From contig NZ_JACSQW010000018.1 of assembly GCF_014836425.1 (NCBI RefSeq), positions 1-39,396 on the forward strand: 39,396 nt of DNA, in the 5' to 3' direction. The stretch is from Limosilactobacillus avistercoris (GTDB lineage Bacteria; Bacillota; Bacilli; Lactobacillales; Lactobacillaceae). Shown piece by piece: positions 21,314 through 36,584 of this stretch (the stretch's first letter is position 1; the number at the start of each line of letters is the position of its first letter). Below the pieces are notes generated by a model. The model worked only from the letters and a program-made list of their open reading frames with translations, was not told the origin of the DNA and ran no database searches. Both the position numbers and the translations under genes were made by a program.

Positions 21314-21598
21314 CTATTTATCCTCAATGAACTGAATCATTGTCCCATATCCCGTTAGTACTAAAAACTTTGGGGCCACTTGAACGTTTGCCACATTGGT
21401 ATTAAAACGGACACCAACGATTCCATCTGCATCCTTTTCTGCAGCCCGTTCACGCAATTTCTGTTGAACTTCAGTAAATAATTGATCTAGCGATTCAAAC
21501 AAATCAATTGCATCACTTGGTAACATTAAATGAGCCGTTGCGTTAACAACTCCTAGAACCTTATGTGCTTGTGGGTAATCCTCAGTTGAAAGAAACAT
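21314..21598 (-). CDS. YbjQ-like (UPF0145 / heavy-metal-binding domain) protein
   Basis: The 94-residue protein fits the YbjQ_1 fold: an N-terminal strand, a long helix (SLDQLFTEVQQKLRERAAEK), then DADGIVGVRFNTNV and a last strand with TGYGTMI. The family forms pentamers and its function is unknown; the heavy-metal-binding label is a prediction. The N-terminal half is more divergent than usual. GGAGGTGG lies before the ATG. It stands alone between tRNA-Leu and the structured RNA, about 55 nt after the RNA terminator. Confidence 0.7.
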   Translation of the reverse strand: MFLSTEDYPQAHKVLGVVNATAHLMLPSDAIDLFESLDQLFTEVQQKLRERAAEKDADGIVGVRFNTNVANVQVAPKFLVLTGYGTMIQFIEDK

Positions 21599-21653
21599 CC
21601 AACCACCTCCAAAACAATTATACCAAATTTAACTATCATTAACCGATACAAGA

Positions 21654-21986
21654 AAAGGCTCCAACACTTAGAAAACTAAATGTTGGAACCCAACTTTTAC
21701 TGATGAGGGGAACGATCAATTAGTCTTATCGTCCACTTCCTCATAGTGCTTACGGAAGGAGTCTTACCACTTTGCACTGGAACTTTTAATTACTAAATAC
21801 AAACTTTTGATTCTCATCTTCCGCAAAGTCGCTTTTTATTCGTTACCGTCCAGATAGTGCACCCTGGTAACCACCATTTAAATTAAAATCTTTCCGGTTA
21901 CTCTTATGTTGCTTCTAGCCTACTCCGTAACTTCCTTCGGCTCTATTGGAACGGGAGGTTTACTTTTACCTCATTTCCTTCCTCAT
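21654..21986 (-). ncRNA. Structured non-coding RNA of about 330 nt, family not recognised
   Basis: A 424-nt gap holds no plausible gene, but it has all the parts of an independent RNA on the minus strand. There is a consensus promoter (21991-22019) and a strong terminator (arms 21657-21671 / 21676-21690). The predicted 5' end TTGATGAGG pairs with CCTCATCAG near the 3' end, extended by GGAA/TTCC. Internal helices include TTACGGA/TCCGTAA, ACTTTGC/GCAAAGT and the nested GTTACC/GGTAAC with CCAG/CTGG. The terminator stem pairs fully only on the minus strand, through G-U pairs, which fixes orientation. It does not match RNase P, tmRNA, SRP RNA, T-box or common riboswitch cores as far as I can tell. 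Confidence 0.72.
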
Positions 21987-21990
21987 CAAT

Positions 21991-22019
21991 AATATATCAT
22001 TTTTAGCAAGCGCTTTCAA
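21991..22019 (-). promoter_or_regulatory. Promoter of the structured RNA
   Basis: TTGAAA and TATATT are spaced exactly 17 bp on the minus strand, with TGA before the -10. Transcription would start about 21984-21987, at the 5' strand of the closing helix. The -35 begins 4 bp after the upstream protease stop codon. Confidence 0.75.
22005..22018 (-). promoter_or_regulatory. cre-like site over the -35 of the structured RNA
   Basis: TGAAAGCGCTTGCT matches the CcpA cre consensus TGWAANCGNTNWCA except at positions 12 and 14, and contains the palindrome AAGCGCTT. Its overlap with the -35 would fit repression. This is a motif match only. Confidence 0.4.
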
Positions 22020-22022
22020 GAA

Positions 22023-22697
22023 CTAACTAAAAATCCGTGAAAGCATTAATAACATTGCAACCAAGTTATTTAATCCGTGCAATAGCATTGAGTTTCGAAT
22101 ATCGCCATTCTTTCGGTAAACGTAAGCTAAAGTCATCCCCATTACACAGTACAAAAGGAAACTAATGATATTAGTACTTATATGACCAGCAGAAAAGACC
22201 ACTCCAGATAAGATTACTTTGGGCCAAAAAGTATTCGGCTTAAAGAACAAGTTCATTAATACACCACGAAAGACTAACTCTTCTGCTATCGGTGTTAAAA
22301 CTACCGCTGAAACTGCAAAGACAACAGTTACTAGTGGATTACGTCCTAAAATTGTCATTAGGCTTTGGTTATTAGCTGTTTCTGCCTGGTGATAAATTAC
22401 AATGTCTAATATCTCAAGAATATATTCACTAGCTAATATCACTAAGTAACCACCAATAATTAGTTTCAGGTTAATTTCTTTCCTAATCGGTAATTGATTA
22501 TGGTTATGGTATTCCTGACGAGCCCACATGATTATAAAGTAATAAAGGAGTAAAGAAATTACGATTAAGATTATCGTTTTTATCGTAACTTGATGACTAC
22601 GATCTGCAATTCGCATTGCGGTTAATGGTAAACCAACACACACGAAAAGGACGGCTACTAAGCCACCCCGCCTAATGAGGGAAAAGACTTTACTCAT
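22023..22697 (-). CDS. CPBP-family (CAAX/Abi) intramembrane metalloprotease
   Basis: The 224-residue protein has six or seven membrane segments. The three family motifs are intact: EELVFR (EExxxR), FSAGH (FxxxH) and HGLNN (HxxxN). Bacterial members include bacteriocin-immunity proteins and regulators of envelope proteins; the substrate is unknown. AAAGGGGAAG precedes the ATG, which overlaps the stop of the upstream 76-residue membrane protein by 8 nt. The pair is thus translationally coupled. The structured RNA begins directly downstream on the same strand. Confidence 0.85.
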   Translation of the reverse strand: MSKVFSLIRRGGLVAVLFVCVGLPLTAMRIADRSHQVTIKTIILIVISLLLYYFIIMWARQEYHNHNQLPIRKEINLKLIIGGYLVILASEYILEILDIVIYHQAETANNQSLMTILGRNPLVTVVFAVSAVVLTPIAEELVFRGVLMNLFFKPNTFWPKVILSGVVFSAGHISTNIISFLLYCVMGMTLAYVYRKNGDIRNSMLLHGLNNLVAMLLMLSRIFS

Positions 22698-22970: not shown

Positions 22971-23579
22971 CTAATCTTGGTGAAAGACATCTTCTAATAT
23001 CTGTTTAGTCGTTGCCATTTGCGTTCCCCGAGATCGCACATAGTCAATCTGCGAAATAAGGATATCATACGTCCACATAGAAGATAAATCTTTTTCGTTG
23101 AAATAATGGAGATTCAATGTAATTTCATTTAAGTCGTGAATCATTCCCGAAAAATCATCCACTCCTTGATATTTTTTTGTCCCAATAACTACCGGTAAGT
23201 GGTTATCAGCAGAATCTCTCAATACATTCATTAAAATATTTCCGGTTGTGATCTCTGGATGATCATCCAAGAATTGTTGCACCCGCCAAATATCAAAATA
23301 GTGGTTCTCATGAGCTACCTTAGTCTTTTCCGAAACTGTTGTTAAATAATCTGTTTGATCATTAACCGCACTGATACTTTCGATCCGGATGGCAATTAAG
23401 CCATTGATCTTACCATCCCAATCAATACTAATCATTAAGCAAAAATAATTATCGAGTCCAACTATAAAGCCAACGTTAAAATATTCGTCTCCCTTAATAT
23501 TATGCATTTCAACCAGTTTCCCTTGTTGCTTGGCAATGGTTAACTGAATTTTAACATCTTGCTTATTTGGCTGTTCCAA
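22971..23579 (-). CDS. Unknown conserved-looking protein of 202 residues
   Basis: No family is recognised. The N-terminal 75 residues alternate strands (GKLVEMHNIKGDEYFNVGFI, NYFCLMISIDWDGKINGLI, IRIESISAV), suggesting an Sm/SH3-like barrel. A middle part with HYFDIWRVQQFLDDHPEI and VVIGTKKYQG could be a second beta-rich domain. It has no signal peptide or membrane segment. The start is TTG with TAGGGGGCAATGA upstream; no ATG in frame lies near. It is divergent from the deoxynucleoside kinase gene and ends 50 nt before the small membrane protein gene, possibly in one transcript. Confidence 0.65.
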   Translation of the reverse strand: MEQPNKQDVKIQLTIAKQQGKLVEMHNIKGDEYFNVGFIVGLDNYFCLMISIDWDGKINGLIAIRIESISAVNDQTDYLTTVSEKTKVAHENHYFDIWRVQQFLDDHPEITTGNILMNVLRDSADNHLPVVIGTKKYQGVDDFSGMIHDLNEITLNLHYFNEKDLSSMWTYDILISQIDYVRSRGTQMATTKQILEDVFHQD

Positions 23580-35008: not shown

Positions 35009-35243
35009 TAAAAAAGTCCCGTAGAAAATTTATTCTACGAGACGAAATAATTCCGCGGTACCACCCGAATTCCATGAATTAATCATGACACTTCACGCCA
35101 TAACGCGGCAAACGTTACTACCTACTCCAATTTCAGCAGTAATTTTCTTGGACGAGTTCATTGCTAATAATTCCCGTGTTCACAGCACCACACGATCTCT
35201 GAAGAATTAAGTAACAACTACTATTTCCAATTCGATCAAATAT
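35009..35243 (-). promoter_or_regulatory. T-box riboswitch controlling leuS
   Basis: The T-box GGGTGGTACCGCGG is at 35053-35066 on the minus strand. The terminator (GTCTCGTAGAA / TTCTACGGGAC, TTTTTTT) spans 35009-35043. Stem I contains AGTAG on its 5' side and GAACTC on its 3' side, giving a CTC leucine specifier at 35154-35156. A long stem II region is present, unlike the compact argS leader. Confidence 0.92.
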
Positions 35244-35251
35244 TTAATGAT

Positions 35252-35288: not shown

Positions 35289-36476
35289 TTAGCCGAGAAT
35301 CTTCTTTAATTCATCAACCTTATCTAGTTGTTCCCATGGTAGTTCAACATCCGTCCGACCAAAGTGACCGTAAGCAGCAGTTGGTTCATAAATTGGCCGC
35401 TTCAAGTCAAGCATCTTAATAATCCCTGCAGGACGAAGATCAAAGACTTTACGTACTGCGGCAATTAATTCTGCTTCACGCCGCGTACCAGTGCCATAAG
35501 TATCAATTGAAATTGATACTGGTTCTGCAACACCAATAGCATAAGCAACTTGGATTTCAAGCTTCTTTGCATAGCCAGCAGCAACCAGGTTCTTAGCAAT
35601 ATACCGGGCAGCATAACTAGCTGAACGGTCAACCTTGGTAGCATCCTTACCAGAGAAGGCCCCACCACCATGGTGAGCAGCACCACCATAAGTATCAACA
35701 ATAATCTTACGACCAGTTAGACCGGCATCCCCTTGAGGGCCACCGATAACAAAACGACCGGTTGGGTTAATGAAGTACTTAGTTTGATCATCAAGGTATT
35801 CAGCAGGAATCACAGCTTTAATAACTTGTTCCATAACATCCTTCTTGATTTGATCAAGTGAAACTTCTGGATCATGTTGAGTACTCAAAACAACAGTGTC
35901 AACACGTAAAGGCTTATCATTTTCGTCGTATTCAACGGTAACTTCAGCCTTTGCATCTGGACGTAAGTAAGGAATTACTTTATCCTTCCGTAACTTAGCA
36001 ATCCGTTGCATTAACTTATGACTAAGCATCAATGTCAATGGCATGTACTCTGGTGTTTCATCAGTAGCATACCCAAACATTAACCCTTGATCACCAGCAC
36101 CAATTTGATCAAGCGGATCGGCATCCCCTTCGCGGGTCTCAAGGGAGTCATCTACCCCTTGAGCAATATCAGGTGATTGTTCATCGATTGCCGTAATCAC
36201 AGCACAGTTATCAGCATCAAAGCCATACTTACCGTCAGTATAACCAATGCGCCGAATAGTATCACGAACAACCTTTTGAATGTTGACGTAAGCCTTGGTT
36301 GACACTTCACCAAAGACTAGGACAAGGCCAGTCGTGACAGAAGTTTCAACAGCGACCCGTGAATCCGGATCTTGTTCAAGCATTGCGTCTAAAATTGCAT
36401 CACTGATTTGATCAGCAATCTTGTCAGGATGTCCTTCAGAAACAGATTCTGAAGTAAATAAATGTTTTTCTACCAT
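35289..36476 (-). CDS. metK: S-adenosylmethionine synthetase MetK
   Basis: MetK makes SAM from methionine and ATP. The 395-residue protein has [17 protein letters not shown] at the N-terminus, [12 protein letters not shown], and the phosphate-binding GGGAFSGKD, all intact. The ATG at 36476 follows GGGGGAATTAATACAC, and this ribosome site is part of the SAM-III riboswitch, which settles the start. An in-frame start at 36500 would lie inside the riboswitch. No terminator is seen before the leuS promoter, so some readthrough into the leuS leader is possible. Confidence 0.97.
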
Positions 36477-36483
36477 GTGTATT

Positions 36484-36566
36484 AATTCCCCCATATGCAA
36501 ATTGCAATTGAAACATTTAGTGGTTACAAGGCATCTTCACAACAATTGTGAATCCTATCGGGAATT
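36484..36566 (-). promoter_or_regulatory. SAM-III (SMK box) riboswitch of metK
   Basis: The leader contains the SMK core: AATTCCCGATAGGAT, a variable hairpin TTCACAA/TTGTGAA, and GATGCCTTGTAACC. The metK Shine-Dalgarno GGGGGAATT follows and can pair with AATTCCC at 36560-36566. SAM binding should sequester the ribosome site and stop metK translation. A 29-nt linker separates GTAACC from the SD. Confidence 0.93.
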
Positions 36567-36584
36567 TGCTTTATAACGAGAACC

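Follow-up and report, generated by a model that had tools for sequence, protein, structure and literature searches.

A predicted stand-alone structured RNA with a conserved cre-box promoter in Limosilactobacillus and Paucilactobacillus

The 424-bp intergenic gap between two minus-strand genes of Limosilactobacillus avistercoris, encoding a CPBP (Rce1-like) membrane protein (22023–22697) and a YbjQ-like protein (21314–21598; Pfam score 22, curated cut-off 23), very probably harbors a genuine structured RNA gene. All coordinates refer to the window, that is, the whole stretch of DNA analyzed (39,396 nt of contig NZ_JACSQW010000018.1). The predicted RNA of ~335 nt lies on the minus strand (21650–21987) and is supported by a promoter, a terminator, and matches to two covariance models, R1 (21751–21986, 206 bits) and R2 (21844–21962, 99.2 bits), whose training sets both include the window copy. 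By the searches made here, it would constitute a new RNA family, with members so far in Limosilactobacillus and Paucilactobacillus; in kind, it joins the stand-alone structured RNAs, several families of which are already known. Our explanation as a whole, to which we assign a rough probability of 45%, is that of a new family of stand-alone RNAs that is controlled by CcpA and acts through a protein bound at a helical junction.

A sequence-only reading of the window had already proposed an autonomous structured RNA of ~330 nt, flanked by a promoter of the form TTGAAA, 17 bp, TATATT and by a terminator specific to the minus strand, and both signals were confirmed. The −35 element TTGAAA (22019–22014) is followed by a 17-nt spacer and an extended −10 element TGATATATT (21999–21991) that includes an extended TG and the hexamer TATATT (21996–21991), and transcription is predicted to start at about 21984–21987. 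Promoter-like sites show no excess over chance in this region (4, compared to a mean of 4.4 in shuffles), so that the significance of this promoter derives from the similar elements conserved in relatives and not from the single sequence. The intrinsic terminator (21691–21646) consists of a 16-pair hairpin (21691–21656) and a T-rich tail; terminator-like sites number 8 in the region against a mean of 1.2 in shuffles. The minus-strand RNA folds at −94.8 kcal/mol (z = −4.0 versus shuffles). We also considered the plus strand as sense and rejected it: it folds better than shuffles as well, but less strongly (z = −2.7), and the conserved promoter and terminator both lie on the minus strand. Within the window genome, the RNA sequence is present once. 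No ORF of at least 30 amino acids was found inside 21654–21990, and no reading frame is conserved among 37 copies of the RNA. It is thus hardly credible that the locus produces a short coding transcript, or that it is a DNA element merely resembling an RNA. ORFs do occur in some homologous copies, the longest encoding 79 amino acids (L024), but the four start-codon columns common to at least 22 of the 37 copies open frames that differ in length and stop; moreover, sequence changes are compensatory in pairs, and insertions and deletions are frequent.

The existence of the RNA and its predicted fold are well supported by comparison with relatives, in which covariation exceeded both the shuffled and the slid controls. 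Across 23 Limosilactobacillus sequences, 89.8% of cells were paired (83.2% in shuffles), and 79 cells carried double changes, compared to 32.2 in shuffles and 9–43 when the pairing partners were slid. Among 43 core sequences from both genera, these values were 86.6% (74.0% in shuffles) and 117 (47.6 in shuffles, 10–46 slid). An alignment of 37 sequences yielded 91.4% of cells paired (80.3% in shuffles) and 211 double-changed cells (67.7 in shuffles, 36–83 slid); this alignment (A3) was made with the model and is biased towards the structure by construction. A damaged copy, L013, is included in alignment A2 and left out of A3 and A4. The number of further pair types did not rise above shuffles, 95 of 500 of which reach the observed value for the 23 sequences and 61 of 500 for the 43 sequences.

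Comparison with relatives also revised the helices that had been proposed from the single sequence. The complementary stretches are real, yet only ACTTTGC/GCAAAGT, corresponding to helix P5, is conserved as written, while the other three are not. An outer closing helix had been suggested, and the lowest-energy fold of the window copy does contain it, with an advantage of 2 kcal/mol over P1 plus P6; the conserved closing helix, however, is P1, and in relatives L009 and L011 P1 with a local hairpin is favored over the outer helix. Its strand CCTCATCAG is better read as part of the local hairpin P6. GGAA was correctly recognized as belonging to the 5' strand of the closing helix, but its partner is UCCUUCC (21760–21754) and not TTCC (21712–21709). 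The pairing TTACGGA/TCCGTAA overlaps bases of P1 and, with gaps counted as unpaired, is formed in 128 of 161 cells, but only 8 of the 23 relatives have it complete. GTTACC/GGTAAC is paired in 68 of 138 cells by the same count, and the conserved partner is GUAACC, within P4.

In the revised model, P1 joins GGAAGGA (21982–21976) with UCCUUCC (21760–21754). It is paired in 95.6% of cells (37 sequences) and shows double changes in three of eight pairs, with variants such as GGAAAGA/UCUUUCC and GGAAGAAC/GUUCUUCC in relatives; half of the helix does not vary. Inside P1 follows the 5' hairpin P2 (GAGG...CCUC, 21972–21955), which is variable in relatives, and then P3, which in the fold of the window copy pairs 21954–21943 with 21857–21846. 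As a family helix, P3 is paired in 75.9–83.8% of cells and varies strongly with many compensatory double changes; the Paucilactobacillus rows viewed require a register shift of one base. P3 opens into a three-way junction with the small hairpin P3a (AGCC...GGCU, 21942–21917) and with P4, which pairs GUAACC (21901–21896) with GGUUAC (21872–21867). Both vary across the family in a compensatory manner: P3a is paired in 88.5% of cells (43 sequences) with double changes in three of four pairs (e.g., AGCC/GGCU and AGUC/GACU), its outermost pair being open in 14 of 36, and P4 is paired in 96.9% of cells (43 sequences) with double changes in four of six pairs (GUGACC/GGUCAC or GUAACC/GGUUAC). On the 3' side, P5 pairs GCGACUUUGCGGAA (21832–21819) with UUCC-AGU-GCAAAGUGGU (21782–21766); the pairing of GCGACUUUGCGGAA with UUCC...GCAAAGUGGC is formed in 97–99% of cells, and its pairs hardly vary wherever P5 is present. 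L064 and L065 carry a different hairpin at this position, entered as gaps in the count. Beyond P1, the window copy has a 3' extension with the hairpin P6 (AUGAGG...CCUCAU, 21744–21703). This stretch before the terminator also occurs in L009, L011, L082, L098, and the damaged L013, but not in L012; the local hairpin is part of the minimum-energy folds of L009 and L011, but not of that of the window copy. In most relatives whose sequences were compared, the terminator follows directly after P1, giving a shorter RNA.

The most conserved unpaired parts of the molecule are the strands at the junction of P3, P3a, and P4. They comprise the joining strand AGAAGCAACAUAAG (21916–21903; family form AGmAGCArCrUAAG) and the stretch CCAGGGUGCAC (21867–21857), the first base of which ends P4 and the last of which starts the 3' strand of P3; AGmAGCArCrUAAG and CCrGnGUGC are near-invariant in both genera. 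Together with the lack of a conserved frame and the inconstant gene position described below, this fits a junction that is presented to a partner. Strands of such constancy are typical of active sites and aptamers, and the RNA might accordingly act by itself, as a ribozyme, as a metabolite sensor in trans, or as a self-assembling particle like ROOL or GOLLD. We recognized no ligand or cleavage signature, though, and the RNA is smaller than ROOL and GOLLD, which leaves a self-acting RNA distinctly improbable.

To place the RNA among known families, we scanned the region 21400–22300 against Rfam 15, which returned at E ≤ 10 two matches only, with E near 1, and none to 6S RNA. The same scan over 18 homologous loci gave nothing above a curated gathering threshold on the RNA and no 6S match at E ≤ 5, in keeping with the original impression that no recognized family applied, be it RNase P, tmRNA, SRP, T-box, or a riboswitch. 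The best sub-threshold candidate was ncr1015 (39.3 and 34.7 bits with a gathering score of 60; E = 0.032 and 0.29) in L022 and L029, where it spans the 3' end together with the terminator, and was taken as chance. At gathering scores, a scan of the whole window reported hits only outside the RNA region, namely two tRNAs, a T-box leader (35035–35245), and a SAM-III riboswitch (36474–36581), the latter two on the minus strand. In the open-access literature searched, the family is not named. The ornate noncoding RNAs ROOL, GOLLD, and OLE likewise have conserved folds, but they are longer and differ in structure, and the RNA region has no Rfam match. Little is known about the function of the raiA motif RNA, to which we noticed no resemblance. 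At 205 nt, raiA is comparable in size and likewise a structured noncoding RNA; it was resolved as a monomer (PMC12286853). The same source notes that GOLLD was named after lakes and Lactobacillales, and cites a long RNA of Lactobacillus salivarius.

Homologues were found in two genera. A plain DNA search located the RNA in 38 of 50 Limosilactobacillus genomes. Using R1, which was built from 23 Limosilactobacillus sequences only, we searched 396 sampled genomes of the family and obtained 26 positives in 2 of 40 genera (19 Limosilactobacillus and 7 Paucilactobacillus), the latter scoring 40.8–86.4 bits although the model had been trained without them. The core model R2 was built from 43 sequences, some of them from Paucilactobacillus, after R1 had found all seven Paucilactobacillus genomes independently. 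With E < 1e-9 as the limit for a strong match, it identified the RNA in 40 of 50 Limosilactobacillus genomes, including 34 of the 41 that are of high quality, and it also matches 7 of 7 Paucilactobacillus genomes; at E ≤ 0.05, the Limosilactobacillus counts are 43 of 50 and 37 of 41, which include three weak matches judged by eye to be chance. A credible copy is therefore missing from 10 of 50 Limosilactobacillus genomes (7 of 41 of high quality), indicating that the RNA is not essential. A core-pattern scan of 84,980 species genomes, which may omit records of the window's own or a near-identical genome, returned 37 stretches, all from Limosilactobacillus, Paucilactobacillus, or records labeled only Lactobacillus or Lactobacillaceae. 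Carriers identified here include the type strains L. vaginalis ATCC 49540 and L. pontis DSM 8475. Outside both genera, R2 produced 15 weak matches (17.9–24.2 bits) in 395 sampled genomes of the order, with about 15 expected by chance from E-values that are rough and calculated per genome, and none of the 8 that were viewed was convincing: by eye, none combines a complete core with a cre promoter, although the intergenic match L122 (23.8 bits) has part of the core sequence in common with the RNA. Because searches beyond 40 genomes used stricter filters that lose some weak matches, absence outside the two genera is provisional. We also dismissed by eye, as chance, the weak matches in G015, G017, and G044 and an additional one in G039; one more weak match lies on G049:C45 (18.5 bits). 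Two core-pattern matches on viral contigs were rejected, as each lies inside an apparent coding gene with no other RNA features nearby.

The genomic surroundings vary while the transcription signals persist, which together with the covariation bears out the proposal of an autonomous RNA. Counted by eye, the CPBP gene is directly upstream in 38 of the 40 RNA-bearing Limosilactobacillus genomes, and it lies 1.2 kb away in the remaining two. On the other side, a YbjQ-like gene follows directly and in the same direction in 24 of 40 (by eye) and ~1.2 kb off in one, two loci are at contig ends, and in 13 the gene either lies far away or on another contig, or has no match. In three Paucilactobacillus genomes it stands at 6 kb, far off, or on a different contig, and at the five Paucilactobacillus loci with the downstream side covered (L071 is not) the gene that comes next differs and in two of them is convergent. 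The frequent YbjQ-like neighbor is what a cis-acting leader would predict, in which the RNA senses a signal and the terminator attenuates the gene downstream; given that this association is inconstant in Limosilactobacillus and that the downstream gene is variable or even convergent in Paucilactobacillus, we consider such a leader very improbable. Upstream, P. vaccinostercus (L071) and P. suebicus (L079) have a CPBP-like gene ~2 kb from the RNA, with MarR-like and acetolactate-decarboxylase-like genes in between, and still further upstream L071 has, like the window, deoxynucleoside-kinase-like and Hfq-like genes (names by sequence reading in each case); the neighbors in the remaining Paucilactobacillus genomes are different again. 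Two loci show what the absence or loss of the RNA looks like. At an empty site in one relative (L135; G034:C1, ~811750), TAA, the stop codon of CPBP, runs straight into the ATG that starts YbjQ, and the cre promoter, RNA, and terminator are all missing. In the decaying copy L013 (G011:C39, 28482–28748), the cre box and −10 element are mutated and the 3' strand of P4 is deleted, although its flanking proteins share 88 and 98% identity with those of the window. The empty site, the decaying copy, and the changing neighbors argue that the RNA is a discrete, dispensable unit, and its inheritance is most simply explained as vertical.

A feature absent from the sequence-only description is a cre box, TTGAAAGCGCTTGCT (22019–22005, minus strand), which overlaps the −35 element and the first part of the spacer. 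It is the single match to the consensus WTGNAANCGNWWNCW in the window; shuffles contain 0.46 matches on average, and 39 of 100 have one or more, so this site proves nothing alone. Of 48 distinct homologous promoters drawn from both genera, however, 45 carry the consensus, the exceptions being the damaged L013, L050, and L056. Because the surrounding genes differ between and within genera, the box is part of the RNA gene. The window genome encodes ccpA (TIGR01481, 459.5 bits; cut-off 442.35). CcpA thus probably controls the RNA. The direction of its effect is less certain than control itself, and repression in both genera is accordingly inferred with lower confidence. According to PMC8414754, about one-third of lactic acid bacteria have a cre box on the −35 element of their 6S gene, and these boxes are held to be inhibitory. 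A study on P. oligofermentans (PMC4972977), a species that carries the RNA (L091), reports 109 upstream regions with predicted CcpA sites similar in form. At the level of transcripts, however, it detected no catabolite repression by glucose, and among the differentially expressed genes with such sites the majority had higher expression on glucose or xylose. These results speak against simple glucose repression in Paucilactobacillus and lower our confidence in the overall explanation.

The parallel with 6S RNA (RF00013), likewise a stand-alone RNA gene, raises the prospect of a second 6S-like RNA, which would mimic an open promoter and hold RNA polymerase when the preferred sugar is lacking. 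By eye, we saw no cre box upstream of the 6S gene in the window genome, and the RNA could occupy the same regulatory slot. A lactobacillar 6S RNA had indeed been named at the outset as a threat to novelty, yet the RNA differs from it in sequence and fold and has no match to the 6S model, while the true 6S gene lies elsewhere in the genome (G000:C55:8573–8760, L038; 63.5 bits). 6S RNA is a single long hairpin with a central bubble, in contrast to a molecule in which P1 surrounds several helices and a three-way junction, and we therefore give a 6S-like role very little weight.

We propose the following mechanism for a CcpA-controlled RNA with a protein partner. P1 would close the molecule, and P3, P3a, and P4 would meet at the junction, beside the hairpins P2 and P5. 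According to established knowledge of CcpA, the protein in complex with HPr-Ser-P would bind the cre box; as the box covers the −35 element, RNA polymerase would be blocked while a preferred sugar is being used, and the RNA would be made once this sugar is exhausted. The two junction strands would then serve to dock a partner, most likely a protein, whose activity the RNA would alter in cells short of preferred carbon, both steps being suggested purely by the anatomy. Protein binding as the mode of action is a tentative part of this model. Somewhat more doubtful is the broader proposal that the junction core either binds and controls a housekeeping protein or catalyzes a reaction, as part of a global response to the loss of preferred sugar in heterofermentative lactobacilli.

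The main rival is base pairing to mRNAs: a trans-acting small RNA whose unpaired strands, or UCCUUCC, pair with mRNAs and alter their translation in the absence of preferred sugar. We rate this unlikely, albeit ahead of every other alternative. Small RNAs of this kind usually come from a stand-alone gene with a terminator and a regulated promoter, and the 3' strand of P1 is rich in C and U, resembles an anti-Shine-Dalgarno sequence, and is complementary to purine-rich ribosome-binding sites. Spot 42 of Escherichia coli, a small RNA of 109 nt under the global sugar regulator CRP, pairs with mRNAs; it is unrelated in sequence and serves as a comparison of possible function only. However, the compensatory changes that keep UCCUUCC in P1 argue for intramolecular pairing, and a conserved multi-helix fold of 230–340 nt exceeds the needs of a seed. 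A scan of 10 genomes for exact occurrences of GAAGCARCRTAAG found 0–2 sites each and 10 in total, of which 8 were the RNA itself; since exact matching misses most real targets, this result weighs little against base pairing.

Bacterial RNAs that combine independent transcription with a conserved complex fold are few, and several of them have proved to be central regulators or new kinds of molecules. The RNA described here occurs in most sampled genomes of Limosilactobacillus, a genus with probiotic and food bacteria among its members. A ready hypothesis for the timing of its expression, the absence of preferred sugar, and natural knock-outs in the form of the clean empty site (L135) and the decaying copy (L013) make its function directly testable. 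The conserved cre promoter suggests that Limosilactobacillus and Paucilactobacillus brought a structured RNA under the control of CcpA, just as 6S RNA was in other lactic acid bacteria. If the junction core does control a housekeeping protein, the RNA would represent an arm of carbon catabolite control without a known counterpart in other bacteria.

Two further observations concern the neighboring genes. Six of the seven high-quality Limosilactobacillus genomes without the RNA also lack a YbjQ-like gene, but 10 of the 40 genomes with the RNA are likewise without a match, and we therefore claim no functional link. G008, G012, G015, G016, G017, and G044 have neither the RNA nor a YbjQ-like match, possibly by loss of a block. 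Upstream in the window (22971–23579, minus strand), a 202-amino-acid protein gives a sub-threshold match to Phage_Hfq (PF23874), and a similar-looking protein is encoded in the L071 region.
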